From Polynucleobacter sp. (GTDB lineage Bacteria; Pseudomonadota; Gammaproteobacteria; Burkholderiales; Burkholderiaceae): a DNA stretch of 38,327 bases. The position numbers were made by a program, and so were the translations under genes. This document shows, one piece after another, positions 2,713 to 19,490 of the stretch. The notes below the pieces were generated by a model that did not search any database, was not told the DNA's origin, and saw only the letters and a program-made list of their open reading frames with translations. Within the stretch, counting starts at the first letter, position 1, and each line of letters starts with the position of its first letter. The DNA lies in the NCBI RefSeq assembly GCF_018500155.2, contig NZ_JAHBAK020000069.1, positions 1 through 38,327 on the forward strand, read 5' to 3'.

Positions 2713-2745
2713 ATGAAACCGTATTGATGGTGGGTGTTGCTCAAA

Positions 2746-5019: not shown

Positions 5020-5070
5020 ATAGAAGATAATCTAACAGTAAGCAGTCTATTTCAATCAAAAAAGGCCGAT

Positions 5071-5265
5071 ATGTTTACTCTTAAAGTATCTGGAATGACC
5101 TGTGGCGGCTGTATCAATGCCGTTACTAGAGCAATTCAATCTCAGGATCCAAATGCCAAAGTTCAGGCTGACTTGGGCGCACAGACTGTCAGTCTGGAAA
5201 CGGCGCTCACCCCAGCAATGGCCAGTCAGCTTATAACAGATGCCGGATTTCCAGTAGCTAACTAA
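5071..5265 (+). CDS. copZ: CopZ-like heavy-metal-associated copper chaperone
   Basis: 64 residues forming one ferredoxin-like HMA domain, with the metal site M-T-C-G-G-C at residues 9-14. The reading frame is open further upstream to an ATG at 5008, but the domain begins exactly at the ATG at 5071, which has an AAGG ribosome site and gives the family length. The longer start would add a non-homologous leader, so I reject it. CopZ proteins bind Cu(I) in the cytosol and hand it to the HMA domain of CopA. The divergent copA next door supports this. Confidence 0.9.
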   Translation: MFTLKVSGMTCGGCINAVTRAIQSQDPNAKVQADLGAQTVSLETALTPAMASQLITDAGFPVAN

Positions 5266-5333
5266 CCTATTGTTTAGAATGACGGCAATCTTGGCAAAAC
5301 CCGCAGTTTTTGTTCCCTAAAGGATCGTGTTTT

Positions 5334-5981
5334 ATGTTCTTCAGTAAGTTAATGCCTCACGATGGTAATTTCTTTGAATTGTTCAATGAGCATGCTGGAA
5401 ATATCGTTGCTGCTTCAGAGTCATTTTTGAAGTTTGTGGAACACTACAATGATGAAGTCTTAAGAGCTAAATACACCCAAGAAGTAGATAAAGCAGAACA
5501 TGCTTGTGACGACATTGTGAAAGAGGTTCATCGTCGCCTGCACAAGACATTTATCACCCCCATTGATCGCGACCAAATTTTTTCACTCATCAATACGATG
5601 GATGATGTTGCGGATTTATTGCAAAACGGTACCGAGGCAATGCATTTGTATGACGTCAAACAAATGACCCCTGAAATGTTGCAGATGGCAGAGTTATGCA
5701 ATCAGTGCTGTATCAGCATGAAAAATGCCGTTGGAACATTAAAAGACATTTCAAATCCTGAAGTTGCAAAGGCGGCCCTCAAGACGTGTGATGAGATTGA
5801 TCATCTCGAGTCAGGCGCTGACCGCTTGCTATCCACGGCGATTACGAGATTGTTCCGTGAGGATATCGAAGTGCGCGAACTCATTAAGTGCCAGCGTATC
5901 TACGAACTACTCGAGGAAGTAACCGATAAATGTGAGGACGTTGCCAATTTGGTTGAAGGCATCGTTCTAGAAAACTCTTAA
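5334..5981 (+). CDS. DUF47/PhoU-like phosphate transport regulator
   Basis: 215 residues, all alpha-helical in character and rich in charged heptads, with the DUF47 (TIGR00153) pattern: MPHDGNFFELFNEHA at the start, then repeated acidic motifs such as DRDQIFSLINTMDDVADL and ELLEEVTDKCEDVANLVEGI. The ATG at 5334 is chosen because AAAGGA lies at a proper distance; an upstream in-frame ATG at 5310 would add eight unrelated residues. The gene ends 11 bases before the Pit transporter start. This pap-pit arrangement is common: the DUF47 protein is thought to modulate the low-affinity phosphate transporter in a PhoU-like way. The detailed mechanism in this family is not settled. Confidence 0.9.
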   Translation: MFFSKLMPHDGNFFELFNEHAGNIVAASESFLKFVEHYNDEVLRAKYTQEVDKAEHACDDIVKEVHRRLHKTFITPIDRDQIFSLINTMDDVADLLQNGTEAMHLYDVKQMTPEMLQMAELCNQCCISMKNAVGTLKDISNPEVAKAALKTCDEIDHLESGADRLLSTAITRLFREDIEVRELIKCQRIYELLEEVTDKCEDVANLVEGIVLENS

Positions 5982-5992
5982 GGCGAATAACC

Positions 5993-7003
5993 TTGCCAGC
6001 GACTGAAGTAGCTTTTTGGGTAGTTGCGCTATTAGTCATATTAGCGCTCGGTTTCGATTTCATGAATGGATTTCATGATGCGGCGAACTCGATTGCGACA
6101 GTGGTATCTACTGGCGTTCTAAAGCCGCAGCAAGCGGTTGTCTTTGCAGCCTTCTTTAATTTTCTAGCGATCTTTATTTTTCATTTAAGCGTTGCAGCTA
6201 CTGTCGGTAAAGGTATTGTGCACCCGGCAGCTGTCGATTTGCACGTCATCTTTGGAGCACTCGTCGGCGCTATCGTTTGGAACGTCGTGACTTGGTATTA
6301 CGGCATACCATCAAGCTCATCTCATGCTTTGATTGGTGGATTGGTTGGTGCGGCCTTGCCCAAAGCGGGTGTTGATGGTCTGGTCTGGTCAGGCATTATC
6401 AAAACGGTTTCGTTTATCTTCATATCACCAATGGTGGGATTCCTATTAGGGTCACTCATGATGCTTTTGGTCTCATGGATTTGTAGGAATGCCACTTTAG
6501 CTAAAACGGATCGCTGGTTCCGACGTTTGCAGTTGGTATCCGCTAGTGCCTACAGTCTCGGTCATGGTGGTAACGATGCGCAAAAGACAATCGGCATTAT
6601 TTGGTTGCTCTTGATTATTACTGGCTATGCAGACGCGGGCGCAAAAATGCCGCCAAGCTGGACCATCATTAGTTGCTATGTTGCCATTGCTATGGGAACA
6701 ATGTTTGGTGGCTGGCGTATTGTCAAAACCATGGGCCAAAAACTTACTAAACTCAAGCCAGTAGGAGGTTTTTGTGCTGAAACGGGCGGCGCAATCACCT
6801 TATTTGCTGCTACGGCAATCGGTGTGCCGGTCTCAACTACCCATACGATTACAGGGGCTATTGTTGGCGTGGGCTCTACTCAAAGAGCGAGTGCGGTTCG
6901 ATGGGGTGTGGCTGGCAATATTGTTTGGGCTTGGATTTTCACCATTCCTGCTACAGCCCTGATGTCCATGATCGTGTATTACCTCAGCTTGCTGATCTTT
7001 TAA
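5993..7003 (+). CDS. pit: Low-affinity inorganic phosphate (metal-phosphate) transporter, Pit family
   Basis: 336 residues with about ten membrane helices. The two Pit signature repeats are present: GFDFMNGFHDAANSIATVVS near residues 20-40, and the later copy around SLGHGGNDAQKTIGI (about 185-200), with the usual SSSHALIGG and VSTTHTITGAI motifs after each. Pit proteins move phosphate with a divalent metal using the proton gradient across the inner membrane. The start is TTG at 5993, with AAGGCG ending seven bases upstream; no in-frame ATG fits better. It directly follows the DUF47 gene and is surely co-transcribed with it. Confidence 0.95.
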   Translation: MPATEVAFWVVALLVILALGFDFMNGFHDAANSIATVVSTGVLKPQQAVVFAAFFNFLAIFIFHLSVAATVGKGIVHPAAVDLHVIFGALVGAIVWNVVTWYYGIPSSSSHALIGGLVGAALPKAGVDGLVWSGIIKTVSFIFISPMVGFLLGSLMMLLVSWICRNATLAKTDRWFRRLQLVSASAYSLGHGGNDAQKTIGIIWLLLIITGYADAGAKMPPSWTIISCYVAIAMGTMFGGWRIVKTMGQKLTKLKPVGGFCAETGGAITLFAATAIGVPVSTTHTITGAIVGVGSTQRASAVRWGVAGNIVWAWIFTIPATALMSMIVYYLSLLIF

Positions 7004-7136
7004 CACTGTCACCACGCTATACATTCTTGTTTCAAGCAATTTTCGGCTGGTGCGGTTAATCTACCTACTATTAATAAAAATTACATCAAGTAATGTCTAG
7101 GTTTGTGCTGGGCATTGCACATCAAAGGAGAAAGTA

Positions 7137-8225
7137 GTGTCTGTTACTCTCGAGGCTGTTCAGAGCGCCCTTAAAAACGTGATCGATCCCAATACGAAGG
7201 TTGATTTTGTCACGGCAAAAAATGTGAAGAATCTCAAAGTCGATGATGGGGATATTTCTTTGGATATTGTGTTGGGCTATCCAGCAAAGAGTCAATTTGA
7301 TGCAATTCGTAAATCGATTATTACAGCGTTACGCGAATTGCCTGGTGTAAAAAATGTCAGCGTGAATGTCACAAGTCAAATCGTCGCACATGCTGTACAG
7401 CGTGGCGTGAAATTATTGCCTGGCGTTAAAAATATTATTGCAGTTGCAAGTGGTAAGGGTGGCGTAGGTAAGTCAACGACTGCAGTGAATTTGGCACTCG
7501 CACTGGCGGCTGAGGGCGCACAAGTGGGCATATTAGATGCAGACATTTATGGCCCAAGCCAACCCATGATGCTTGGCATTACCGGAAGACCTGATTCAGT
7601 AGAAGAAAATACGATTGAACCCATGGAAGGCCATGGTTTGCAAGCAAGCTCGATTGGCTTTTTGATTGAGGAAGATTCACCGATGGTATGGCGCGGACCG
7701 ATGGTGACATCCGCCCTCGAGCAGTTGCTGCGCCAAACCCGCTGGCGCGATTTGGATTACTTGATTGTTGATATGCCACCTGGTACCGGGGATATTCAAT
7801 TAACTCTATCGCAAAAAGTTCCAGTGACGGGATCTGTCATCGTGACCACCCCACAAGATATTGCTTTGCTGGATGCGCGCAAAGGTCTCAAAATGTTTGA
7901 GAAGGTCGGAGTACCCATCATCGGCATTATTGAGAACATGAGTACATATGTCTGTCCAAGTTGCGGTCATGAGGAGCATGTGTTTGGCACTGGTGGCGGC
8001 GAGAAAATGTGTAAAGAGTATGGCGTAGAATTTTTAGGCGCATTACCACTCAATATTTCTATTCGTGAACAAGCTGACTCTGGTAGACCAACATTGGTGG
8101 CTGATCCTGATGGGGCTATAAGCGCGATTTACAAAACCATCGCGCGCCAAGTGGCGATTAAAGTCGCTGCATTATCCAAAGACATGAGCAGTAAATTTCC
8201 CAATATTGTGGTTCAGAACACCTAA
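7137..8225 (+). CDS. mrp: Mrp/NBP35-type iron-sulfur carrier ATPase (ApbC)
   Basis: 362 residues. Residues 1-80 form the MIP18/DUF59 domain. The ParA-like ATPase follows, with the deviant Walker A SGKGGVGKS at 105-113, the switch aspartate in DADIYGPSQP, and DMPPGTGD further on. The family's cysteine pair CPSCG lies near residue 272 and holds a bridging Fe-S cluster in the dimer. Mrp proteins transfer 4Fe-4S clusters to apo-enzymes. The start is GTG at 7137 with an AAAGGAG ribosome site six bases upstream. The next gene (DUF3305) begins 14 bases after the stop, so this carrier heads, or at least reads into, the formate dehydrogenase maturation genes, whose products need many clusters. Confidence 0.95.
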   Translation: MSVTLEAVQSALKNVIDPNTKVDFVTAKNVKNLKVDDGDISLDIVLGYPAKSQFDAIRKSIITALRELPGVKNVSVNVTSQIVAHAVQRGVKLLPGVKNIIAVASGKGGVGKSTTAVNLALALAAEGAQVGILDADIYGPSQPMMLGITGRPDSVEENTIEPMEGHGLQASSIGFLIEEDSPMVWRGPMVTSALEQLLRQTRWRDLDYLIVDMPPGTGDIQLTLSQKVPVTGSVIVTTPQDIALLDARKGLKMFEKVGVPIIGIIENMSTYVCPSCGHEEHVFGTGGGEKMCKEYGVEFLGALPLNISIREQADSGRPTLVADPDGAISAIYKTIARQVAIKVAALSKDMSSKFPNIVVQNT

Positions 8226-8239
8226 GGATCGATAAGGGT

Positions 8240-8773
8240 ATGCGCTTTGCCGTATTGATGCGTAAACACAATCTGGATAATCCTTGGGTCTCTTATCGCT
8301 GGGCTCCACAGGAAGTGCTTCCAGATTTTGGTCAATATGGTGCACAGAGTAGTCAGTCAATCACTGGCCAATTTTTGGGTAAAGATCCAGAAGGCGAGTC
8401 CTGGCTTTTCACGGGCTTTGAGCTCAATTTATTTTTAGATGAGGCTGAAGGTTATTACCTGAATGTTTCTGCGACCAAGCCTTGTTGGTTTGTGATGTGG
8501 CGACTTGAAGAGGATATTGAGCGCTATATAGATTCGCAATCACTGGAAATGGCCAAGTCAGAGTCAACGATTGCCGTTCCGCATCGCATCTGTGTTAGTT
8601 ATAACGAAGCAGCGCGTTTATTAGATGGGGGCGAGTCTGTTGATACGGTGCCCATGAATAATGAACATGCTTCCTGGCTGCAAGATTATGTCAATGAGCA
8701 CTATCGACCTGAACCTAAAAAACGTCATAAGCCTGCCTCTTTTAAGGGTGCTGAACGTTCAGCGGAGGAATAA
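8240..8773 (+). CDS. DUF3305 protein, formate dehydrogenase accessory
   Basis: 177 residues, soluble, with no signal peptide or membrane segment. It has the DUF3305 look: an R-x-N-P-W-V-S-Y-R-W-x-P start (residues 10-22), WLFTGFELNLFLDEAEGYYLNV in the middle, and a C-terminal WLQDYVNEHYRPEPKKRH segment. Members occur in formate dehydrogenase loci of proteobacteria next to DUF3306, but no biochemical role is known to me. Its stop overlaps the DUF3306 start by one base (TAATG), which implies translational coupling. An AAGGAT site lies ten bases before the ATG. A role in cofactor or cluster assembly is only inferred from location. Confidence 0.8.
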   Translation: MRFAVLMRKHNLDNPWVSYRWAPQEVLPDFGQYGAQSSQSITGQFLGKDPEGESWLFTGFELNLFLDEAEGYYLNVSATKPCWFVMWRLEEDIERYIDSQSLEMAKSESTIAVPHRICVSYNEAARLLDGGESVDTVPMNNEHASWLQDYVNEHYRPEPKKRHKPASFKGAERSAEE

Positions 8774-9366
8774 TGTCCGAAGGTTTTTTGAGTCGCTGGT
8801 CTCGTCGCAAATCTGGTCAAAAAGAGCAATCAACTGATCCAGCAAAAGAAGACATTCAATCACCTGCCGTCCACGAGTCTGAATCTAAAGCCGAAGTTAC
8901 CGAGACACCGCCTCCACCAACGATGGAGGATGTTGAAAAGATAGACCGATTTGCGCCAGATTTTTCTGCTTTTATGAAGCCCGAAGTCGACCCCGCTGTT
9001 CAACAAGCAGCGCTAAAAAAAATGTTTAGTGATCCACACTTCAATGTGATGGATGGCCTTGATATTTACATTGATGATTACTCTAAACCCGACCCTTTAC
9101 CTCCTGGCATGCTCGCGCGTATGGTGCAAAGCGACATGCTCAAGTTGTTTCAAAAGACTGCAGATGATGCCACTAATGGCGTAGGTCAGAGGAAAGATGC
9201 CGCAATGCTTGAAGCTCAAGCAGATCCTCCCAATGCATTATCCAATGAGCCATTGCCCCAAAGTGATTTAACATCCACACCATCCCAAGCGCCGGATGAA
9301 TCTGTAAACCAAGATGGAATGCAGATTGCGCAGGATAAGAAAAAAACCTCAGAAGGTTCCCAATGA
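8773..9366 (+). CDS. DUF3306 protein, formate dehydrogenase accessory
   Basis: 197 residues. It starts with GFLSRWSRRK, a basic motif characteristic of DUF3306. A low-complexity acidic/proline linker follows, then the conserved core DFSAFMKPEVDPAVQQAALK and FNVMDGLDIYIDDYS (about residues 63-110). The C-terminal 60 residues are polar and probably disordered. No catalytic motif or cysteine is visible. It overlaps DUF3305 by one base upstream and the multi-cluster Fe-S gene by four bases downstream (ATGA), so the three are tightly coupled. It may act as a scaffold in dehydrogenase maturation; this is inference from context only. Confidence 0.8.
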   Translation: MSEGFLSRWSRRKSGQKEQSTDPAKEDIQSPAVHESESKAEVTETPPPPTMEDVEKIDRFAPDFSAFMKPEVDPAVQQAALKKMFSDPHFNVMDGLDIYIDDYSKPDPLPPGMLARMVQSDMLKLFQKTADDATNGVGQRKDAAMLEAQADPPNALSNEPLPQSDLTSTPSQAPDESVNQDGMQIAQDKKKTSEGSQ

Positions 9367-11453
9367 GTCAAAAATTTGTCTGTAACTGTAATGGCACGAT
9401 GCCCTTAGATGCAAAAGCGCTAGGCGTCTCTGTACACCAATCTTTGTGTCGGCAAGAGGTTGGAAGCTTTATAAAAGCACTAGATGGTTCAGAAGAACTG
9501 GTGGTGGCATGCACTCAAGAGGCGGCACTTTTTTCCGAACTCGCCGAGCAGTCTGAGAAGCCGTTAGTGGCACCACTTCGTTTTGTCAATATTCGTGAAG
9601 TGGCTGGTTGGACACAAGAAGCAAAAGTTTCTGGCCCGAAAATTGCCGCATTACTTGCGCTAGCAGACGTACCAGAGGCAGAGCCTGTACCAGTTGTTCA
9701 GTATGAAAGCCAGGGAAGATTGTTAATCATCGGTCCTGGTAGTAGCGCAATCCCATGGGCAGAAAAAGTGGCAAGCACCTTAGATGTTTCTGTCTTGTGT
9801 ACTGGGCCAGGGGATTTGCCTCTAACACGCAACTATCCGATTTACACAGGCTTTGTCACAAAGCTAGAGGGTTATCTAGGCAATTTTTCTGTCGATTGGG
9901 ATTTGCAAAATCCTATTGATCCTGAAATGTGTACTCGTTGTGGTGCTTGCATTGAAGCGTGCCCAGAAAATGCAATTGATTTGTCGTTTCAGATCGACCT
10001 CGGCAAGTGCAAATCTCATCGTGCTTGCGTCAGCGCTTGTGCCAGCATAGGTGCAATTGCGTTCGATCGTGCCCAACGCAATCGCAATGCAGAGTTTGAT
10101 TTGGTTTTGGATTTACGTACAGATCCAAAATTGCGTATGAGTCAAACACCACAAGGTTATTTTGCTCCAGGTAAGGATCCACTGGATCAGGCTCTAGCTA
10201 TTGGGCAGTTGATGGAAATGGTTGGCGAGTTTGAGAAGCCCAAGTATTTTGTCTATAACGATAAAGTGTGTGCGCATGGACGTAACGGTAAAGTGGGTTG
10301 CAGCGCGTGTATTGATGTTTGTTCAACTGGCGCCATTCAATCAGTTTTCAAAAATGGGCAAGGAACAGTTGAGGTCAATCCCAATCTTTGTATGGGTTGT
10401 GGTGCTTGCTCAACAGTTTGCCCATCAGGCGCAATGCGTTATAACTACCCCAGCGTTACGCATCAAGGCAAAGAATTAAAAACGCTCATCACCACATTCA
10501 GCGCTGAATCTGCAAAACCAAACCAGAAGGTAGCGCCTAGCTTGCTTTTTCATACATTAAAAGCTGGCACACAAATGATAGATGCGCTAGGGCGATTAGC
10601 TCACGTGGCCCCAAAACAGTATGAAGGCTTGCCATCCTTCCTCATTCCCTACGGCATTGAGCATATTGCTTCAACGGGTCTTGAGTTGTGGCTTGGAGCA
10701 TTAACTTTTGGTTTTGCAGAAGTCACCTTGCTGCTTAGTGGTGATGAGGATCCTGCTTATCGTGCAGCACTTGAGGATCAGACTAAATTAGCCAATGCAA
10801 TATTAAAAGCCTTTGGGTTTGACGAACGCATTCATTTGGTGATGGTAGATTCTGTAGAGGATTTACAAACACTTTCTAAAGCAATGGGAGTCTTGCGCCA
10901 AAGAGGCGCTCTGCCATCGATTTGCGCCTCTGCTAGTTTTGGCTTTTCCAATCAAAAGCGTGAAACCTTGGAAGCCGTGCTTGAGCATTTACAAAAACAC
11001 GCAATTACTCCATTGCCTGAGCAAGGCGCGACTCTGCCAAAAAGTGCTTTATTGGGCGGGCTAGCAATCAATGCAGATGCTTGCACTTTATGTATGTCTT
11101 GTGTGAGCAGTTGCCCTGAGGGCGCATTGATTGACAATCCGGATGAACCTATTCTGACGTTCATTGAAAAGCAGTGTGTGCAGTGCGGTATCTGTACGCA
11201 AACTTGTCCAGAGCAGGCCTTAACTCTTCAGCCTCGTTTAAAAACGGTTGAGCAACGAAAACAAAAAGTAGTGCTGAATCAAACCCAAATTTTTCATTGC
11301 ATTAGTTGTGGCAAGCCATTTGGGACGGCCAAAATGGTGGATTTGATGTTGGCAAAACTGGGAGCTCATGGCGCATTTGCAGGGGCTGCGATGGAGAGAT
11401 TGAAGATGTGTGGCGATTGTCGCGTTGTAGATATGGTGAAAAAAGAACTATGA
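9363..11453 (+). CDS. Multi-cluster 4Fe-4S ferredoxin-like protein of the formate dehydrogenase locus
   Basis: 696 residues. It has an N-terminal region with a C-N-C-N pair (Cys7, Cys9). A Rossmann-like patch LLIIGPGSSAIPWA (about 120-132) follows. Cys-rich motifs come next: CTRCGACIEACP (190-201), CKSHRACVSAC (216-226), the stretch 303-320 with CAHG and GCSACIDVC, and CMGCGACSTVCP (343-354). A roughly 200-residue domain without clusters separates these from CTLCMSCVSSCP (574-585) and CVQCGICTQTCP (605-616). A final C-x2-C pair (646/649) and CGDC (683-686) close the protein. There is no Tat or Sec signal, so it is cytosolic. Homologues recur beside FDH genes, but the function is unknown to me; electron transfer or cluster provision during assembly is likely. 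It is coupled at both ends by ATGA overlaps. Confidence 0.85.
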   Translation: MSQKFVCNCNGTMPLDAKALGVSVHQSLCRQEVGSFIKALDGSEELVVACTQEAALFSELAEQSEKPLVAPLRFVNIREVAGWTQEAKVSGPKIAALLALADVPEAEPVPVVQYESQGRLLIIGPGSSAIPWAEKVASTLDVSVLCTGPGDLPLTRNYPIYTGFVTKLEGYLGNFSVDWDLQNPIDPEMCTRCGACIEACPENAIDLSFQIDLGKCKSHRACVSACASIGAIAFDRAQRNRNAEFDLVLDLRTDPKLRMSQTPQGYFAPGKDPLDQALAIGQLMEMVGEFEKPKYFVYNDKVCAHGRNGKVGCSACIDVCSTGAIQSVFKNGQGTVEVNPNLCMGCGACSTVCPSGAMRYNYPSVTHQGKELKTLITTFSAESAKPNQKVAPSLLFHTLKAGTQMIDALGRLAHVAPKQYEGLPSFLIPYGIEHIASTGLELWLGALTFGFAEVTLLLSGDEDPAYRAALEDQTKLANAILKAFGFDERIHLVMVDSVEDLQTLSKAMGVLRQRGALPSICASASFGFSNQKRETLEAVLEHLQKHAITPLPEQGATLPKSALLGGLAINADACTLCMSCVSSCPEGALIDNPDEPILTFIEKQCVQCGICTQTCPEQALTLQPRLKTVEQRKQKVVLNQTQIFHCISCGKPFGTAKMVDLMLAKLGAHGAFAGAAMERLKMCGDCRVVDMVKKEL

Positions 11454-12082
11454 GTACAAAAGAAAATGCGGTAACTGAGGTGAGTGAGGTCGGCTTGCCT
11501 GAGGACTTAGCTAGAGCAGATCTCTATGGCTTAATAGCCCGCTTTTTTCATTTGCCACCAGATCAAGAGTTATTGGATCAAATTGCGGCAACTGCTGATC
11601 AGCAAGAGGTTGCTGAGGATGCACCCTTGGCTAAAGCTTGGATGAATCTGGTAGAAGTAGCCAAAAACAATCCTGCACAAGCCTGGCGTGACGAGTTTGA
11701 TGCGAATTTTATTAGTGTAGGTAAGCCCAACGTCATTCTGAATGGCTCTTTTTATATGGCTGGGCACCTCAATGAAAGACCCCTAGTCAATATTCGCAAG
11801 GCGCTAGAAGAATTTGGACTGGAGTCTGCGGAGGAAGTTACGGAAACCGAGGACCACATTTCCTCTCTTTGTGAGGTGATGAGATACCTTATCGCTGGGG
11901 ATGATGTAGAAATTTCCAATCTGACCAATCAGCGCATTTTCTTTAATGAGCACATTCGCCCTTGGTACGACGAATTGTGCGATGCAATAGAAGGGACTCC
12001 GGAGATGCATCTCTACCACCCCGTGGCTGCCCTGACTAGAGAGTTTCTGGCCATAGAGGGCCAAAGCTTTGACATGATTTAA
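11450..12082 (+). CDS. TorD/DmsD-family molybdoenzyme chaperone
   Basis: 210 residues, all helical, of the TorD/DmsD/NarJ fold: DLARADLYGLIARFFHLPP at residues 22-40, WRDEFDANFI and then ETEDHISSLCEVMRYLI in the middle (the E-x-x-D-H motif), and YHPVAALTREFLAIE at the end. These chaperones bind the twin-arginine leader of a molybdo- or tungstoenzyme and hold it until the cofactor is loaded. The frame stays open upstream to 11306, but the ATG at 11450 overlaps the preceding stop as ATGA and starts just before the fold, so it is the chosen start. Its client is presumably the Tat-tagged catalytic subunit encoded 430 bases downstream. Confidence 0.88.
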   Translation: MSTKENAVTEVSEVGLPEDLARADLYGLIARFFHLPPDQELLDQIAATADQQEVAEDAPLAKAWMNLVEVAKNNPAQAWRDEFDANFISVGKPNVILNGSFYMAGHLNERPLVNIRKALEEFGLESAEEVTETEDHISSLCEVMRYLIAGDDVEISNLTNQRIFFNEHIRPWYDELCDAIEGTPEMHLYHPVAALTREFLAIEGQSFDMI

Positions 12083-12191
12083 TGTTGCGTCGCATTAAAA
12101 AAAGAATTACTCAACCATTCAAATCAAGACTCAAAACCCTTATATCATTGCAGTTATATGAAAATGTCAAAAGTGCAATTACGAATTACAC

Positions 12192-12205
12192 TTGACTCAC
12201 ATCAA
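12192..12205. promoter_or_regulatory. FNR/Anr-like box
   Basis: TTGACTCACATCAA matches TTGAT-N4-ATCAA with one substitution, in the gap between the chaperone gene and the small Tat protein gene. Its centre is only 30 bases before the ATG at 12229. That is too close for standard class II activation of that start, so it could be a repressor site, could serve a different transcript, or could be chance. Confidence 0.4.
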
Positions 12206-12228
12206 GAATAATTAAAAAGGAGCATGCC

Positions 12229-12450
12229 ATGAGCACAAAATCTACAGCGACTTCTAGCGAAGAGAATCAGCCATCGCGCCGTAAGTTCTTTTTTGGTGCA
12301 GGCGCTGCCGTTGGTGCAGTTGCGGTCGCTTCACAAACTACCGTTGGTAAAGCGGTCATTCAAGAAATGAGTAGTGCAGTCAAAGAAAAAAGCGATAGTA
12401 AAACGATGACTGCACACATGCGCAAGTATTACGAAACTACATTGATCTAA
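12229..12450 (+). CDS. Small formate dehydrogenase-region Tat-target protein
   Basis: 73 residues: an N-terminal polar stretch, a twin-arginine motif S-R-R-K-F-F-F at residues 20-26, a hydrophobic Gly/Ala segment (GAGAAVGAVAVAS), then about 35 polar residues ending HMRKYYETTLI. This is the layout of the short formate dehydrogenase region TAT target family (TIGR02811 as I recall it), found just upstream of FDH catalytic subunits. The ribosome site AAAAAGGAG lies seven bases before the ATG. The role is unknown; it could escort the enzyme or act as a tiny subunit. It starts the structural operon and lies 64 bases before the catalytic gene. Confidence 0.85.
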   Translation: MSTKSTATSSEENQPSRRKFFFGAGAAVGAVAVASQTTVGKAVIQEMSSAVKEKSDSKTMTAHMRKYYETTLI

Positions 12451-12514
12451 GTTTGTATTTTCTGATCACTCGTTTTCATCGTTAATCAATAAAAACTTTT
12501 CTCAGGGACAACAT

Positions 12515-15493
12515 ATGAGTCTGACTCGTAAATCCAATACCCCACAAAGCAGCCGTACTACATCTCGACTTATTGGTAGCCTCTCGCGTGGACTAAAAGC
12601 AGCAGTTCCAACAATGGATCGACGCACTTTCCTTAAGCGTTCTGGCGTTGGCGTTGGTGCAGGTATTGCTGCAAGTCAGCTCAGTTTGGTGCAAAAGGCT
12701 GTGGCTGAGCCAAGCAAGGCAATGTTAGATGGCAAGGGAAAGATTGAAGTCAAGCGATCCATTTGTACGCACTGCTCAGTCGGTTGCGCCGTAGATGCGA
12801 CAGTAGAAAATGGCGTATGGGTTCGTCAAGATCCAGTATTTGATTCTCCAATTAATTTAGGCGCACACTGCGCGAAGGGTGCTGCATTACGTGAGCATGG
12901 TCATGGTGACTATCGTTTGCGTTACCCAATGAAATTAGTGGATGGTAAATATCAGCGTATTTCTTGGGATCAAGCGCTCACCGAAATCACTGCGCAGATG
13001 AAATCTATCCGTGAGAAATATTCACCTGATGCAATGTTCTTTATTGGATCATCGAAGCACAACAACGAACAGGCCTACTTACTACGTAAGTGGGTCTCTT
13101 TCTTTGGAACGAACAATACAGACCATCAAGCGCGTATTTGTCACTCAACCACTGTTGCAGGTGTTGCGAACACCTGGGGCTATGGTGCGATGACCAATAG
13201 CTACAACGACATGATGAATGCGAAGGCAGCTCTGTATATTGGTTCTAATGCTGCTGAAGCTCACCCAGTATCTATGTTGAGTCTTTTGCATGCCAAAGAA
13301 AATGGTTGCAAAGTGATTGTGGTGGATCCACGTTACACCCGTACTGCAGCTAAATCTGATCAGTACATTCGAATTCGCTCTGGTACAGATATTCCGTTCT
13401 TGTTCGGTCTGCTGTATCACATCTTCAAAAATGGTTGGGAAGATAAAAAGTACATTAACGACCGCGTCTATGGCATGGATGAGATCCGCAAAGAAGTCAT
13501 GGAGAAGTGGACTCCAGCCGCTGTTGAAGAGGCTTGTGGAGTGCCTGAGGCGCAAATGTATAAAGCCGCTGAAACCATGGCTAAGAATCGTCCAAGCACG
13601 ATTGTTTGGTGTATGGGTCAAACCCAGCACACCATTGGTAACTCTATGGTTCGCGCATCTTGTATTTTGCAATTGGCGCTAGGTAACGTTGGTAAGTCTG
13701 GTGGTGGTACAAACATTTTCCGTGGCCACGATAACGTTCAAGGTGCTACCGACGTTGGTCCTAATCCAGATTCCTTGCCGGGTTACTATGGCCTTGCAGC
13801 GGGCTCATGGAAACACTACGCAACCGTGTGGGGTGTTGATTACGATTGGATCAAAGGTCGTTATGCCCCAGATATGATGGAAAAGTCTGGTACGACTGTA
13901 TCCCGTTGGGTTGATGCGGTATTAGAAAAAAATGACATGATTGACCAGCAGACTGCTGTTAAAGGTCTGTTCTTCTGGGGTCATGCACCAAACTCACAGA
14001 CCCGCGGTCTGGATATGAAGCGTGCAATGGATAAGTTAGATCTGTTGGTGGTTGTAGATCCATATCCAAGTGCGACCGCTGCCATGGCTGCAATGCCTCC
14101 AGCAGAAGGGCAGACAGTAAACAAGAATCGCAATGTTTATTTGTTGCCAGCAGCAACCCAGTTCGAAACTTGCGGTTCTGCTACTGCTTCCAATCGCTCA
14201 TTGCAATGGCGTGAGAAAGTCATTGATCCATTATTTGAATCTGTACCAGATCATGTGATCATGCAAGCATTTGCAGATCGCCTTGGTTTTGGCGAAGAGC
14301 TATCTAAAAACTACAAGATGCTCAATTCCAAGTTTGCTGGTAAGCAGTGGAAAGAGCCGCAGATTGAAGATATCTTGCGTGAGATCAATCGTGCAGTTTG
14401 GACAATTGGTTACACCGGCCAAACTCCAGAGCGTCTTAAGGCTCACATGAGAATGGTGGCAGCTTTTGATCCTAAGACACTTAAATCTCGCGGTGGTGTA
14501 GATCCGGTCACTGGATATGACACCACAGGTGACTACTATGGATTGCCTTGGCCATGTTACGGTACTGCTGCTATTAAGCATCCCGGCTCACCAAACCTCT
14601 ACGACACTAGTAAGAGCGTGATGGAAGGCGGTGGTAACTTCCGTGCTAACTTCGGTGTTGAACGTGACGGCGTAAGTTTGTTGGCTGCTGATGGTTCTTA
14701 CTCAAAGGGTTCGGCAATTCAGACTGGTTATCCTGAGTTTGACCATGTATTTGTCAAGAAACTCGGTTGGTGGGATCAGTTGACCGAAGAAGAGAAGAAG
14801 CTTGCAGAAGGTAAAAACTGGAAGACCGACCTATCGGGCGGCATTCAACGTGTAGTCATGAAGAATGGTTGCCATCCATTTGGTAATGCAAAAGCCCGTG
14901 CGGTAGTTTGGAACTTCCCAGACCCAGTACCTATTCACCGCGAAGCGCTCTACAGTACTAACGCACCTATGATGCGCAAGTACCCAACTTCTGCGGATAA
15001 GAAGAACTTCTGGCGCCTGCCAACGCTCTATAAGACCGTTCAAGATCAAAACTTGAATGAGAAGCTTTATGAGAAATTCCCAATCATTCTGACCTCTGGT
15101 CGTTTGGTTGAATATGAGGGTGGTGGCGACGAGACACGTTCTAACCCATGGTTGGCAGAACTTCAACAAGAAAACTTTGTGGAGATCAATCCTAAAGCTG
15201 CGGCCGATCGCGGTATTAAGAACTGGGATTATGTCTGGGTTAAATCTCCAACCGGTGCCAAGATTAAGGTGCGTGCATTAGTGACTGAGCGTGTTGATCA
15301 AGGTACAGCTTGGGTGCCATTCCACTTTGCTGGCTGGTGGCAGGGCAGTGATTTGCGCAAGTACTATCCAGAAGGTGCAGCGCCGGTGGTCTTAGGTGAG
15401 GCGGTGAACACTGCAACGACTTATGGTTACGACCAAGTAACCATGATGCAGGAAACCAAAACCACTATGTGCCAAATCGAGAAATTTGCCTAA
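12515..15493 (+). CDS. fdhA: Formate dehydrogenase catalytic (alpha) subunit, Mo/W-bis-MGD, Tat-exported
   Basis: 992 residues. A 34-residue basic leader precedes the Tat motif DRRTFLKR (35-42) and its Gly/Ala h-region, with likely cleavage after AVAE near residue 65. The N-terminal 4Fe-4S site uses Cys84, Cys87, Cys91 and Cys119. The cofactor ligand is Cys209 in ARICHSTTVAG (codon TGT), so this is a cysteine, not selenocysteine, enzyme. The His210 that follows is the conserved partner. Large Mo/W-bis-MGD domains follow, and the C-terminal dinucleotide-binding domain includes PIILTSGRLVEYEGGGDE and WVPFHFAGWW. It oxidises formate to CO2 in the periplasm and passes electrons to the Fe-S subunit. 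The start at 12515 has AGGGA six bases upstream; the internal Met34 has none. AGGAG couples it to the next gene. Confidence 0.95.
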   Translation: MSLTRKSNTPQSSRTTSRLIGSLSRGLKAAVPTMDRRTFLKRSGVGVGAGIAASQLSLVQKAVAEPSKAMLDGKGKIEVKRSICTHCSVGCAVDATVENGVWVRQDPVFDSPINLGAHCAKGAALREHGHGDYRLRYPMKLVDGKYQRISWDQALTEITAQMKSIREKYSPDAMFFIGSSKHNNEQAYLLRKWVSFFGTNNTDHQARICHSTTVAGVANTWGYGAMTNSYNDMMNAKAALYIGSNAAEAHPVSMLSLLHAKENGCKVIVVDPRYTRTAAKSDQYIRIRSGTDIPFLFGLLYHIFKNGWEDKKYINDRVYGMDEIRKEVMEKWTPAAVEEACGVPEAQMYKAAETMAKNRPSTIVWCMGQTQHTIGNSMVRASCILQLALGNVGKSGGGTNIFRGHDNVQGATDVGPNPDSLPGYYGLAAGSWKHYATVWGVDYDWIKGRYAPDMMEKSGTTVSRWVDAVLEKNDMIDQQTAVKGLFFWGHAPNSQTRGLDMKRAMDKLDLLVVVDPYPSATAAMAAMPPAEGQTVNKNRNVYLLPAATQFETCGSATASNRSLQWREKVIDPLFESVPDHVIMQAFADRLGFGEELSKNYKMLNSKFAGKQWKEPQIEDILREINRAVWTIGYTGQTPERLKAHMRMVAAFDPKTLKSRGGVDPVTGYDTTGDYYGLPWPCYGTAAIKHPGSPNLYDTSKSVMEGGGNFRANFGVERDGVSLLAADGSYSKGSAIQTGYPEFDHVFVKKLGWWDQLTEEEKKLAEGKNWKTDLSGGIQRVVMKNGCHPFGNAKARAVVWNFPDPVPIHREALYSTNAPMMRKYPTSADKKNFWRLPTLYKTVQDQNLNEKLYEKFPIILTSGRLVEYEGGGDETRSNPWLAELQQENFVEINPKAAADRGIKNWDYVWVKSPTGAKIKVRALVTERVDQGTAWVPFHFAGWWQGSDLRKYYPEGAAPVVLGEAVNTATTYGYDQVTMMQETKTTMCQIEKFA

Positions 15494-15518
15494 GTAAAAA
15501 TAAAGTCAGGAGAACACA

Positions 15519-16175
15519 ATGGCAAGAATGAAATTTATTTGCGACACAGAACGATGCATCGAGTGCAACGGTTGTGTCACTGCATGTAAGAACGATAACG
15601 AAGTTCCTTGGGGTGTTAATCGTCGTCGTGTTGTCACGGTCAACGACGGCATTATCGGTCAGGAAAAATCGGTATCTGTGGCATGTATGCACTGTACAGA
15701 TGCGCCATGTATGGCGGTATGTCCGGTGGATTGTTTCTACCGCACCGACGAGGGTGTGGTGTTACATGACAAAGATATCTGCATTGGCTGCGGCTATTGC
15801 TCATTTGCATGCCCATTTGGCGCACCTCAGTTCCAGAGCAAAGGCGCATTTGGATCGCGCAGCAAAATGGATAAGTGCACATTCTGTAGTGGCGGTCCAG
15901 AAGAGAACGGCAGCGTTGCTGAATTCGAAAAATATGGACGCAACCGTTTGGCAGAAGGTAAGTTACCACTCTGTGCTGAAATGTGTTCCACCAAAGCATT
16001 GATCGGTGGTGACAGCGACATTATTTCTGGCATCTTTAACCAGCGTGTTGCTAATCGTGAGAAGAATGGTAAATATCCTGGTTCTAAGGCCTTTGGTTGG
16101 ACAACTGCTTATGGTGGTCCTGACACTCCGGCACCAACACCAACCCCTGCTGCAAAAATTCCAGGAGCTAAATAA
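15519..16175 (+). CDS. fdhB: Formate dehydrogenase iron-sulfur (beta) subunit
   Basis: 218 residues with sixteen cysteines arranged as four 4Fe-4S sites: Cys13/16/19/23, Cys56/59/64/68, Cys88/91/94/98 and Cys120/123/152/156. This is the DMSO-reductase-family electron-transfer subunit pattern. It carries electrons from the catalytic subunit to the membrane cytochrome b. It has no leader of its own, so it should be co-exported with the Tat-tagged alpha subunit. The last 18 residues form a Pro/Ala-rich tail (TPAPTPTPAAKIPGAK), and a similar tail ends the small protein at 17519. A TCAGGAG ribosome site precedes the ATG. The stop overlaps the next ATG by one base. Confidence 0.95.
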   Translation: MARMKFICDTERCIECNGCVTACKNDNEVPWGVNRRRVVTVNDGIIGQEKSVSVACMHCTDAPCMAVCPVDCFYRTDEGVVLHDKDICIGCGYCSFACPFGAPQFQSKGAFGSRSKMDKCTFCSGGPEENGSVAEFEKYGRNRLAEGKLPLCAEMCSTKALIGGDSDIISGIFNQRVANREKNGKYPGSKAFGWTTAYGGPDTPAPTPTPAAKIPGAK

Positions 16176-16411
16176 TGAAAGTCAATTTCAAAACTCTCGG
16201 TCTTTGTATTGCAGCAGGAGCTCTGCTAGCTGCGTGTTCTGAGCCTCCAGAAATTGCTGCCAAAGCTGCTAAACGGCCTGATGTCGCTCCTTACATGGGT
16301 GCTAATAACGGCTTTATGACGAAGAACTGGACGCCTGGTAATCAGGCGAGTTGGACTGAGTCTACAGACAAGCGTACTCAGGGTCAAAATGAATACAGTC
16401 GTATTAAGTGA
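16175..16411 (+). CDS. Small lipoprotein of the formate dehydrogenase operon
   Basis: 78 residues. A signal peptide ends in LLAACSEPP, a clean lipobox with lipid-modified Cys at about residue 21. The mature part is about 57 polar residues with MGANNGFMTKNW and TQGQNEYSRIK. I recognise no domain. The start overlaps the fdhB stop (TAATG), and the cytochrome b gene follows within 50 bases, so it sits inside the operon between two structural subunits. A small membrane-anchored accessory subunit that tethers or stabilises the periplasmic enzyme is a reasonable guess, but nothing in the sequence proves it. Confidence 0.7.
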   Translation: MKVNFKTLGLCIAAGALLAACSEPPEIAAKAAKRPDVAPYMGANNGFMTKNWTPGNQASWTESTDKRTQGQNEYSRIK

Positions 16412-16457
16412 TCATCTCAATAACAATAAATAAAGCAAAACATTTAAGGACATGAGT

Positions 16458-17510
16458 ATGAAACGATCATTTTCTAGAGCTCTCCGCACTCTGGTGTTGG
16501 CCGCAGGCTTATCACTGACGCTGGCTGGAGCCAGTTATGCTGAGCGCGGACCAATGGCGCCTTTGCCATCGCCAAGTGGAGTGGATATTCCGCCTGCATC
16601 GGTACCAGCTAACCCAAATGCATTAGCTAACGGTACTCAAGCGCAATCGCAGCCGGCTAATCCATCAATATTCACTACCGCGAATAGCGACCCGTATAAC
16701 TACGTTAGCATTCCAGATAAAGAGGCTAGCGTTCTTATTCAACGATCTGGTCAGCAATGGCGTGTGATTCGTAATGGCGTTATCACTGTATATGGTGGTT
16801 GGTTATTGGCAATCGCATTCTTGGCGATTATTGCTACCTACACTCTTAAAGGTCCAATGAAGTTGCATGAGCCTTTATCTGGAGTAAAAATCAAACGCTT
16901 TAGTGCTTTTGATCGTTTGATTCACTGGACTATGGCGTTTAGTTTCTTGGCGCTGGCTATTACTGGTTTGCTCATTCTGTACGGCAAATACTTTGTGATG
17001 CCTGTCATGGGTGGGGTGGCTTATGGATCATTCTTAAATATTTGCAAGAATATTCATAACTTCACCGGCCCATTATTTACTTTGTGTATCGTGATCTTCT
17101 TCTTACTCTTTGCTCATAAGAATGTTTTTGGTAAAGGGGATATGGAGTGGATTATGGGCTTTGGTGGAATTTTCTCAGGCAAGCACATTCCAGCAGGTTT
17201 CTTCAATTTCGGTGAAAAGTTCTGGTTCTGGTTTGGTATGACTTTCTTGGGTTTAGTCATTTCCGGATCTGGGTTTGTACTGGATATGATCGTGCCATTT
17301 ATGTCCATTGAGTACACCCGTGGAACTATGCAGATTGCTAACATCATTCACAGTAGCGCTGCGATCTTAATGACTGCAATGGCGATGGGTCATATTTACA
17401 TTGGTACCATCGGCTCTCAAGGTTCGATCGATGGCATGAAGACGGGTTATGTTGATGCTACCTGGGCAAAAGAGCATCATGAGCTTTGGTACAACAAAGT
17501 CAATAAATAA
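16458..17510 (+). CDS. fdhC: Formate dehydrogenase cytochrome b (gamma) subunit
   Basis: 350 residues from the ATG at 16458; the ATG at 16452 is only one base from AAGGA, while the second is seven bases away and gives a basic MKRSFSRA signal start. A cleavable signal peptide (ASYA at about 25-28) precedes a Pro-rich periplasmic segment, one helix near 112-130, then the four-helix cytochrome b core. Candidate haem ligands are His156 (RLIHWT), His200 (NIHNF), His220 (FAHKN), His298 (NIIHSS) and His312 (MGHIY). The subunit takes electrons from the Fe-S protein and reduces quinone. The first cleaved segment plus an extra helix is the long-form FdhC seen in Betaproteobacteria and epsilonproteobacteria. 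Confidence 0.92.
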   Translation: MKRSFSRALRTLVLAAGLSLTLAGASYAERGPMAPLPSPSGVDIPPASVPANPNALANGTQAQSQPANPSIFTTANSDPYNYVSIPDKEASVLIQRSGQQWRVIRNGVITVYGGWLLAIAFLAIIATYTLKGPMKLHEPLSGVKIKRFSAFDRLIHWTMAFSFLALAITGLLILYGKYFVMPVMGGVAYGSFLNICKNIHNFTGPLFTLCIVIFFLLFAHKNVFGKGDMEWIMGFGGIFSGKHIPAGFFNFGEKFWFWFGMTFLGLVISGSGFVLDMIVPFMSIEYTRGTMQIANIIHSSAAILMTAMAMGHIYIGTIGSQGSIDGMKTGYVDATWAKEHHELWYNKVNK

Positions 17511-17518
17511 GGATAGCC

Positions 17519-17818
17519 ATGAAAAAAATTATTGCTTTGACATTGTTTGCATTTGCAGGCACCTCAGCCATGGCTGCATTGCCACCATTGACACCCGAAC
17601 AAGCTGAAGCCGCTGCTTTAACGAAAGCAAAAGCAGCTTATGGTGATAGAGTGGGTGCGTATCAGTTGTGCCAAGCTCAAAACAGAGTTGCTGACCGTTT
17701 TAAAGTGGCCGGCACTCCAGCCCCAGCAGCATGTGTTGCGCCACCTCCGTTTGTGCCTCCTGTGGCTGCAGCACCGGCACCAGCAGCTGCCCCTGCAGCT
17801 GCACCAGCAGCTAAATAA
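17519..17818 (+). CDS. Small exported Ala/Pro-rich protein of the formate dehydrogenase operon
   Basis: 99 residues: a typical Sec signal peptide (MKKIIALTLFAFAGTSAMA, cleavage after AMA), a helical stretch LTPEQAEAAALTKAKAAYGD, then YQLCQAQNRVADRF and PAACVAPPP with two cysteines (Cys51 and near Cys73), and a low-complexity tail of Ala and Pro repeats. I do not recognise a family with confidence. AAGGA lies upstream of the ATG, and the fdhC stop is eight bases before, so it is the last gene of the operon. The two cysteines could form a disulfide in the periplasm. A structural or assembly role for the dehydrogenase is inferred from position only. Confidence 0.65.
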   Translation: MKKIIALTLFAFAGTSAMAALPPLTPEQAEAAALTKAKAAYGDRVGAYQLCQAQNRVADRFKVAGTPAPAACVAPPPFVPPVAAAPAPAAAPAAAPAAK

Positions 17819-17831
17819 CTGAAAAGTTATT
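17814..17831. terminator. Hairpin spanning both convergent stop codons
   Basis: AATAACT-GAAA-AGTTATT forms a 7-bp stem with a GAAA tetraloop. The stop codons of the small exported protein (TAA, 17816-17818) and of the convergent ABC ATPase (17827-17829) both lie in its arms. There is no long U-run, so its strength as an intrinsic terminator is uncertain. Confidence 0.45.
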
Positions 17832-18534
17832 CAGAAATAAATTCTCGCTGCAGATAGCGCTTCGCTGCGCTAGTCTGTGGATTGGAAAAGAAGGGGCCTA
17901 CGGCTCCTTTTTCTTTTATCTCGCCTTGGTCAATAAAAATAATGAATTGCGCTAGCCTTTGAACTTGAGCAAGTTGATGTGATGAAAAAATCACATCAGA
18001 TCCTTGATGATTGAATTCGCGAATGATGTCTTCAACTTGCTCAGTGGCTTGTGGGTCTAAGTTAGCGGTGGGCTCATCCAATAACACCAGATTGGGTTTT
18101 TGAAGAATGGCTCTACCAAGACATAGTTTTTGTCTCTCGCCAGCAGATAATTTATGTGCTGGACTATTAGCTAGGGTTGATAAGCCAACGCGCTCCATCA
18201 CTTCTTCTACATCATGGTCAGCAATGGTTGAATCAACATCCCTCACAAGACTGATGTTGGTTCTAGTGGATGCTTTAATCATGGGTGTGTGATGTAGAAC
18301 TAATGCTGTCTTATTTGCAAATGAGTACTGAACTGTTCCTGCATCGGGTTGGATTAAGCCGTCCAGGAGCTTGAGAAAGGTCGTTTTGCCGGCGCCATTC
18401 GGGCCTATGCAAGCAGTAATTTGATGCGCTGGAATGATCGCATGAGGAATATTCAGAATGGTGCGTCCATTACTGCGCACAATAATGTCTTTGAGTTCAA
18501 TATATTTTTCGAGATGCTCAGAGTGATTAGCCAT
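17827..18534 (-). CDS. tupC: Tungstate-type ABC transporter ATP-binding protein
   Basis: 235 residues. Walker A GPNGAGKTT, signature LSAGERQ, Walker B LVLLDEPT and the switch histidine in FSSHQL are all present. The frame extends to 18564, but the ATG at 18534, with GGAG just upstream, overlaps the permease stop by eight bases and removes a non-homologous leader; I take it as the start. Together with the TupB-like permease it should power uptake of tungstate (molybdate is less likely but possible). Its position beside the formate dehydrogenase operon fits supply of W for the bis-MGD cofactor. No molybdate-type TOBE tail is seen at the C terminus. Confidence 0.82.
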   Translation of the reverse strand: MANHSEHLEKYIELKDIIVRSNGRTILNIPHAIIPAHQITACIGPNGAGKTTFLKLLDGLIQPDAGTVQYSFANKTALVLHHTPMIKASTRTNISLVRDVDSTIADHDVEEVMERVGLSTLANSPAHKLSAGERQKLCLGRAILQKPNLVLLDEPTANLDPQATEQVEDIIREFNHQGSDVIFSSHQLAQVQRLAQFIIFIDQGEIKEKGAVGPFFSNPQTSAAKRYLQREFISE

Positions 18535-19222
18535 AACGCCTCTCCGCAATCTGACGAACAACAAAAGTCATTAAGTTAGCAATTAATACAATGCCCAGTA
18601 AAACGATGCCCAGGGCAAGTGCTAAAGGTAAGTCGCCCTTACTTGTTTCTAGTGCAATAGCGGTGGTCATCGTTCTCGTAGAATTTTGAATATTGCCCCC
18701 CACAATCATGACGGCACCAACCTCAGATATTGCCCTGGCAAGTCCGGCAAGGATGGCGATCGTTAGTGAAAAACGGCAATCCCAAATTAGCCACTTGTAG
18801 CGAGAGAGTGCTGGAAGACGTAAGCTTAAGAATGACTCTCGTTGGATCTTCCAGGAGTCTTCCAAAATTTGACGGCTCAGTGCTGCAATCAATGGGGTTG
18901 TCAGCAATGTTTGGGCCACTATCATGCCCTTGGGCGTAAATAGCCAACCCCAAGCTCCTAGGGGGCCTGAGCGGGATAGGAGTAGGTAAACAATTACGCC
19001 AACGATGACTGTAGGCACCCCCATCAGCGTATTCAGAGTGACGATGACCCACTTTTTACCCACAAATTCTTCTGTAGCCAAAAGGGCGCCTATAGGAAGA
19101 CCCAGAAGCGTTCCTATGAGGAGGGCAGTAAGGCTGACCTGAAGGGAGACCAAGACAATACCTAAGACTCCACCATCAAAGTGGGCAAGTAGTGCAATGG
19201 CTTCAGAAAAAGCGGTAAACAT
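18527..19222 (-). CDS. tupB: Tungstate-type ABC transporter permease
   Basis: 231 residues with about five membrane helices. The cytosolic EAA-like loop is recognisable around ESFLSLRLPALSRYKWLIW and ARAISEVGAVMIVGGNI (about 140-185). That last stretch, EVGAVMIVGGNI followed by RTMTTAIALETSKG, is typical of TupB/WtpB-like anion permeases. The ATPase gene overlaps its 3' end. No gene for the substrate-binding protein TupA lies on either side in this window: upstream is a divergent Bfd-like gene, downstream is the FDH operon. The binding protein must be elsewhere, or the system has been reduced. Confidence 0.85.
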   Translation of the reverse strand: MFTAFSEAIALLAHFDGGVLGIVLVSLQVSLTALLIGTLLGLPIGALLATEEFVGKKWVIVTLNTLMGVPTVIVGVIVYLLLSRSGPLGAWGWLFTPKGMIVAQTLLTTPLIAALSRQILEDSWKIQRESFLSLRLPALSRYKWLIWDCRFSLTIAILAGLARAISEVGAVMIVGGNIQNSTRTMTTAIALETSKGDLPLALALGIVLLGIVLIANLMTFVVRQIAERRYG

Positions 19223-19289
19223 GGGCTCGATTCTAACAAGGCGGTGGCAAAATGCGTTTTATGAGACTAATTTCCAGATCTATCCGCTA

Positions 19290-19490
19290 ATGGCCGAAGT
19301 CGTTTGCCTCTGTAATAACGTCTTTGACGAGGATTTACGAGATTATTTAGATGCCAACCCGATTGACTCGATTGAGGAGCTTCGGGAGCAAGCCTCTATT
19401 TGTAATAAGTGTATGCAATGCCAAGACTTGGTTGAGGGTGAGATTTATTTGGCCAGAGTAAGGCGCCAAAGGGCGGCGGGACAGTTTTGA
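19290..19490 (+). CDS. BFD-like [2Fe-2S] protein
   Basis: 66 residues. The four cluster ligands follow the bacterioferritin-associated ferredoxin pattern: Cys6-x-Cys8, 29 residues, then Cys38-x2-Cys41, with a further Cys44. The ATG at 19290 opens directly at the domain; the longer frame from 19197 would add an unrelated leader. Bfd reduces bacterioferritin to release stored iron; small Fer2_BFD proteins are also used as loose electron carriers. No bacterioferritin gene lies in the window. The stop overlaps the next ATG (TGATG), linking it to a phospholipid-metabolism pair, an unusual partner for a Bfd. Confidence 0.85.
   Translation: MAEVVCLCNNVFDEDLRDYLDANPIDSIEELREQASICNKCMQCQDLVEGEIYLARVRRQRAAGQF

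Follow-up and report, generated by a model that had tools for sequence, protein, structure and literature searches.

An FDH3-type formate dehydrogenase operon of Polynucleobacter and its putative cytoplasmic maturation module with a candidate electron-transfer platform

The solved relative of the enzyme considered here, PDB 9VAP, is described in a 2026 review as Shewanella oneidensis FdhAB, an oxygen-tolerant Cys-W enzyme whose FdhA carries a single [4Fe-4S] cluster and whose FdhB carries four (PMC13397495, represented here by an excerpt, as are all PMC sources below). Genes for DUF3305, DUF3306, "fer4," and "fdh tat" have already been mapped with fdh operons (PMC4464133). We analyzed a stretch of 38,327 nucleotides from a Polynucleobacter sp., a freshwater bacterium (assembly GCF_018500155.2, contig NZ_JAHBAK020000069.1, positions 1 to 38,327; hereafter the window), part of a genome (G000) of 1.67 Mb in 78 contigs. 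Eleven genes at positions 7137 to 17818, all on one strand, form the locus in question. Our best explanation, offered tentatively and at a little under an even chance, is that this is an FDH3-type formate dehydrogenase (FDH) operon with its own cytoplasmic maturation set, including an electron platform. The genes are as follows.

7137..8225, + strand: mrp/apbC, Fe-S carrier P-loop ATPase, directly 5' of the FDH block (NF008669, 435 bits; cut-off, 348)
8240..8773, + strand: DUF3305 protein, predicted cytosolic (PF11749, 144 bits)
8773..9366, + strand: DUF3306 protein (PF11748, 111 bits)
9363..11453, + strand: multi-cluster Fe-S protein, with HdrA-like (residues 1-378), MvhD-like (388-527), and HycF-like (564-693) parts
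11450 (ATG)..12082, + strand: torD, TorD/FdhM-type chaperone of twin-arginine translocation (Tat) (PF02613, 90.7 bits)
12229..12450, + strand: fdhX, small Tat-signal protein of FDH regions (TIGR02811, 38.6 bits, below the cut-off of 48.45)
12515..15493, + strand: fdhA, Tat-type catalytic subunit (9vap_A, 1247.7 bits)
15519..16175, + strand: fdhB, FDH3-type beta subunit (NF038355 [FDH3_beta], 322.5 bits; cut-off, 240; 9vap_B, 317 bits)
16175..16411, + strand: small lipoprotein (LAAC lipobox)
16452..17510, + strand: fdhC, cytochrome b subunit with an N-terminal extension (TIGR01583, 178 bits; cut-off, 116; 1kqf_C, 73.6 bits over residues 147-352)
17519..17818, + strand: small exported Ala/Pro-rich protein of 99 residues (from reading of the open reading frame [ORF])

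The distribution of four marker families was compared across 299 genomes of the window's phylum and 14 control genomes, with FDH3_beta scored over the NF038355 cut-off and the multi-cluster profile applied at E <= 1e-40. FDH3_beta, DUF3305, and DUF3306 were found in an identical set of 41 of the 299 genomes, both DUF families occurring only alongside FDH3. The multi-cluster profile matched those 41 plus one further genome, G219, whose homologue is distant. The FDH3_beta cut-off matters: 283 of the 299 genomes match at E <= 0.001, but the scores drop from 314.7 to 99.5 bits with nothing between. FDH3_beta, DUF3305, and DUF3306 were over cut-off in none of the 14 controls. The 41 genomes represent 24 genera, and relatedness therefore inflates any p-value. 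An enzyme of this type lacking DUF3305, DUF3306, and the multi-cluster protein, named in an earlier sequence-only reading of this DNA as a refuting case, occurred in 0 of the 41. Because the four families share the same 41 genomes, we are highly confident that the operon is an FDH3-specific maturation module.

Among 200 Burkholderiales genomes, FDH3_beta was found in 39, DUF3305 in 40, and both in 38, while the multi-cluster profile matched 40, 37 of them with FDH3_beta. Of the exceptions, which also include G343, G418, and G377, inspection covered G410, G448, and G363; in these three, contigs end within, or at most ~1.5 kb from, the module genes found. The last ORF of the G448 contig scores with the fdhC profile. 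Where at least 9,990 bases were available 5' of fdhB (47 named Burkholderiales loci), profile searches recovered DUF3305 at 38, DUF3306 at 40, the multi-cluster gene at 44, torD at 44, and Mrp at 13, genes beyond the 20-kb stretch being missed. The module recurs in the neighborhoods examined, which, together with the co-occurrence of the four families, places the operon beyond chance. By FdhB, the nearest relatives of the window are betaproteobacterial metagenome-assembled genomes (MAGs) together with members of Polynucleobacter, P. brandtiae among them.

Direct reading of the junctions showed a 14-base gap between mrp and the DUF3305 gene, 1-base overlaps between the DUF3305 and DUF3306 genes and between fdhB and the lipoprotein gene, and 4-base overlaps between the DUF3306 and multi-cluster genes and between the multi-cluster gene and torD. 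The 1-base and 4-base couplings first reported from DUF3305 to the chaperone were therefore all present, and the same-strand run from Mrp to the small exported proteins was borne out by ORFs and family matches alike. Three such exported proteins are encoded (fdhX, the lipoprotein, and the 99-residue protein), as the body of that reading stated, whereas its title counted two.

By its FdhB, which lies over the NF038355 cut-off (322.5 versus 240 bits), the enzyme is classified as an FDH3-type formate dehydrogenase. FdhA and FdhB both match PDB 9vap (1247.7 and 317 bits), and FdhA has a cysteine, within ICHST, at what we presume to be the metal-ligand position, the site having been placed by analogy with Escherichia coli enzymes. 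The Cys-W site and 1 + 4 [4Fe-4S] clusters of 9VAP (PMC13397495) are in line with the earlier estimate of some five clusters and a metal. The window enzyme would reduce quinone and is probably tungsten dependent, an assignment helped by the presence of TupA-like proteins near FDH3 loci (L034 and L214, both scoring below the model cut-off) and by the adjoining tup-like genes, which lie 8 bases 3' of the operon end on the opposite strand:

17827..18564, - strand: tupC-like ATP-binding cassette (ABC) ATPase (PF00005), a probable component of a tungstate/oxyanion importer, beside the TupB-like permease
18527..19222, - strand: ABC permease, TupB-like (NF038017, 231 bits; cut-off, 100; NF041773 TupB, 157.6 bits, below the cut-off of 320)

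The permease thus falls below the TupB cut-off for a TupBC tungstate transporter and over that of its subfamily, NF038017. The pair is retained in G150, a congener lacking the FDH.

The multi-cluster protein of the window was aligned with 61 of 75 length-filtered references (62 sequences in all). In its predicted structure the nearest folds are those of the electron-transfer subunits HdrA, MvhD, and HycF, proteins of methanogens and E. coli, in that order along the chain. The HdrA fold, including the ferredoxin domains, is present. However, GxGxxG, the FAD-binding motif of HdrA, occurs in 0/62 sequences (GxGxx[GA] in 10/62), so the N-terminal part is HdrA-like but not an HdrA. The delta-subunit fold of MvhD/FlpD is also present; this region (388-527) holds 0 to 3 cysteines per sequence, and none in 33/62, the presumed [2Fe-2S] cysteines not being conserved. 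At the C terminus, a dicluster ferredoxin is followed by a Cys ribbon as in HycF, and the score of 71.6 bits falls below the curated NF009053 cut-off of 204, so this part is only HycF-like. No resemblance to a known Fe-S carrier was seen among these folds, and the earlier view of the protein as a cluster carrier is therefore not supported in the form proposed. Instead, the predicted fusion architecture suggests that the enzyme receives electrons during its building. No description of the protein as HdrA/MvhD/HycF-like was found in the open-licence literature searched, which is weak evidence of absence. In alignment A3, the 10 multi-cluster proteins with neither the N-domain nor the inserted ferredoxin have V or A in the column of window residue Cys346, a cluster cysteine, a hint that their cluster is of the 3Fe type or missing. 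In G219 (L261, 5979-13332), a 511-residue relative follows genes for a Tat-type ArrA/PhsA-like molybdoenzyme, a dicluster protein, NrfD, and a PF02613 chaperone, and that genome has no DUF3305 or DUF3306 match; with such a relative beside a non-FDH molybdoenzyme, the family is not limited to FDH3. This PF02613 chaperone itself terminates in a Cys-x-x-Cys ribbon.

DUF3305 and DUF3306 were aligned with 65 and 28 (alignment A5), respectively, of 72 length-filtered references each plus the window copy. The DUF3305 model has a predicted local distance difference test score of 92.3, and DUF3306 shows a conserved N-terminal F-L-x-R-W-S-R-R-K-like motif followed by a variable tail. Hydropathy analysis revealed no strongly hydrophobic stretch in either window copy. 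The statement that the pair has no described role holds for the open-licence literature searched, where the two appear mostly as listings and, in the available text of the one relevant paper, as mapped operon members (PMC4464133); this too is weak evidence of absence. The TorD protein combines the PF02613 domain with FDH linkage, as expected of a TorD/FdhM chaperone, and its proposed role is modeled on Campylobacter jejuni FdhM (PMC4148689). Coregulation with iron status has been reported for VC1510-VC1518 of Vibrio cholerae and for SO_4506, SO_4507, SO_4509, and SO_4510 of S. oneidensis (PMC5816637, PMC5826389), loci that, in our reading of the gene names, represent the same module.

We propose that the TorD (FdhM-like) protein keeps hold of the FdhA Tat signal until the cofactors have been inserted, while the multi-cluster protein, assembled from HdrA-, MvhD-, and HycF-like parts, would act as a cytoplasmic electron-transfer platform. 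We infer that immature FdhAB docks onto this platform in the cytoplasm for a reductive step that precedes Tat export: most likely the delivery of low-potential electrons for the sulfido ligand on the W/Mo-bis(molybdopterin guanine dinucleotide) cofactor, or alternatively a check of the cluster chain by redox proofreading. In that assembly, DUF3305 and DUF3306 would serve as adaptors specific to FDH3. Mrp would supply Fe-S clusters to both enzyme and platform; here it would also serve the rest of the cell, whereas some alphaproteobacteria have a dedicated copy. In vitro, sulfide alone did not sulfurate the Rhodobacter capsulatus FDH, but sulfuration succeeded once a low-potential reductant was used, without any chaperone (PMC12140954); given that need, a cytoplasmic electron platform would be a natural source. 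The electron-donor mechanism is a possibility that we put forward with some reserve, somewhat below the even mark. A more specific version, which we consider unlikely though worth stating, is that the multi-cluster protein is a flavin-less descendant of an Fdh-Hdr/formate hydrogenlyase relay kept as an assembly station, so that the exported tungsten FDH would first have to exchange electrons with it in the cytoplasm, either in reductive sulfuration or in a test turnover through the cluster chain, and only then be handed by TorD to Tat; electron flow would then be the export checkpoint.

The sequence-only reading had proposed a dedicated delivery line in which [4Fe-4S] clusters pass from Mrp to the multi-cluster protein and from there to FdhA and FdhB. 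Part of this stands. Mrp lies directly 5' of DUF3305 on the same strand with a gap of <=300 bases at 11 of the 42 named Burkholderiales loci whose upstream stretch was long enough (four Polynucleobacter, one betaproteobacterium, Herminiimonas, Ralstonia, two Cupriavidus, Polaromonas eurypsychrophila, and a Burkholderiales MAG; the overlap shown for one, L153, is an artifact of start choice). A second strong Mrp sits inside the FDH locus in 11 of the 41 FDH3 genomes (G067, G070, G083, G099, G115, G138, G174, G200, G217, G232, and G235), versus a second strong Mrp in 1 (G175) of 18 hand-picked FDH3-negative genomes. In a quick tree of 75 Mrps, from which five identical rows had been dropped beforehand, the FDH-linked ones need 5 changes versus ~17 on shuffling, and 12 rows (eleven genes, L040 and L215 being the same gene) fall in one group with a modest support of 81. 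Three genomes belonging to the window's class are represented in that group, and their other Mrp sits elsewhere in the tree; at L032, L033, and L035 (G070, G174, and G138) the module's Mrp falls together with FDH-linked Mrps from other classes. This clustering across classes suggests, from the sequences, that the whole module may have been transferred together with its Mrp. Among five annotated plasmid loci, Mrp is listed in the module in two (Sagittula and Pseudosulfitobacter) and is not listed in the stretch shown, with its incomplete gene table, of Microvirga, Sinorhizobium, and Variovorax.

The case for Mrp as a dedicated first step is, however, weakened. The window Mrp passes as Mrp/ApbC (435 versus 348 bits) and is the only strong one of the genome, the other match being partial (25 bits); it does not qualify as a dedicated paralogue, since it is single and groups on the tree with the copy of FDH-less G150. 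In G150, no FDH3_beta over cut-off, DUF3305, DUF3306, or multi-cluster match was found, and the region (L260) is collinear with the window in the DUF3047 gene, mrp, tupC, tupB, and the BFD gene onward, minus the FDH block; relative to window positions 1918-19490 it also lacks the Cu-ATPase, DUF47, and PiT genes found ahead of mrp in the window. The FDH operon is therefore a present/absent block between housekeeping mrp and tup genes. By coordinates, Mrp adjoins DUF3305 in just 3 of 40 DUF3305-positive Burkholderiales, several of these DUF3305 genes being close to contig ends, and one of the 40 has no Mrp match. Given in addition the match of the multi-cluster protein to electron-transfer subunits, the delivery line appears improbable.

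We give similarly little credence to a checkpoint in which iron or oxygen sets the cluster state of the multi-cluster protein and thereby licenses TorD release and Tat export, with no electron flow to the FDH. The overlap of the multi-cluster gene with the torD coding sequence would fit, as would the joint change of Fe-S protein, chaperone, and FdhAB transcripts in RyhB data (PMC5826389), but electron transfer is what the folds, which are of a docking type, and the near-invariant array of clusters suggest. Least probable is a catalytic partnership, in which a pool of nonexported FdhAB passes formate electrons to the multi-cluster protein as in Fdh-Hdr/formate hydrogenlyase complexes, for although the three parts resemble subunits of complexes containing formate dehydrogenases (7bkb, 7z0t), FdhA bears a Tat-type signal beside an encoded TorD-type chaperone, HdrB/C-like and hydrogenase genes are absent among the operon ORFs, and the G219 relative sits beside a Tat-type non-FDH molybdoenzyme.

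Of the small genes, a lipobox ORF between the fdhB and fdhC positions and a signal-peptide-like ORF at the position of the 99-residue protein were each found at 47/50 Burkholderiales loci, by loose rules without a chance control; a strict Tat-like pattern in fdhX was met at just 24/50. Counts from an iterated lipoprotein profile were discarded, the profile having drifted onto out-of-frame ORFs within fdhA and fdhB. In Variovorax CP063167.1 (L252, 16678-16929), PLSDB carries an rgi flag of "CAE-1 beta-lactamase, 100%" on the small gene that separates fdhB from fdhC, which looks like a misannotated FDH operon lipoprotein. Combinations of a lipoate-ligase-like protein (PF16917), DUF6505, DUF6352, and DUF6494 also occur at FDH3 loci L032, L041, L042, L057, L214, L251, L253, and L254.

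The module bears on the cytoplasmic completion of exported formate dehydrogenases, both of their sulfido-W/Mo cofactor and of their long cluster chains. A gene set that accompanies the enzyme across the whole sample, with an HdrA-MvhD-HycF-like protein at its center, offers a testable candidate for a missing reductive step, and the module genes provide a list for coexpression in heterologous hosts. FDH3-type enzymes are attractive as oxygen-tolerant CO2 reducers (PMC13397495).

Compared with known systems, the window shares with the 9VAP-type FdhABC the cysteine at the presumed ligand position, the Tat-type signal, and the cytochrome b subunit, and differs in also encoding a lipoprotein and a small exported protein. 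With HdrA-MvhD complexes (7bkb, 5odh, 8rvy), the multi-cluster protein shares the fold and order of its N-terminal half and then the MvhD-like domain, whereas it is a single polypeptide lacking GxGxxG and conserved MvhD cysteines, with no HdrB/C-like gene in the operon. With HycF of E. coli formate hydrogenlyase (7z0t_F), it shares the C-terminal dicluster ferredoxin and Cys-x-x-Cys ... Cys-x-x-Cys ribbon, here fused to HdrA/MvhD-like parts and accompanying a Tat-type FDH. The Mrp resembles the Mrp/ApbC (NUBPL-type) Fe-S carriers, except that the window has a housekeeping copy beside the operon and second copies lie in the FDH locus elsewhere. As in the C. jejuni FdhM system, a PF02613 chaperone is encoded beside fdh. 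The accessory genes are the same as in the "DUF3305-DUF3306-fer4-fdh tat" operons, although the available text terms DUF3305 and DUF3306 putative membrane proteins (PMC4464133), unlike the window copies with their lack of a strongly hydrophobic stretch. The operon itself is a further example of an already known type; what is new is the joint occurrence of the four families, a likely identity for the multi-cluster protein, and the recurrent link to Mrp.

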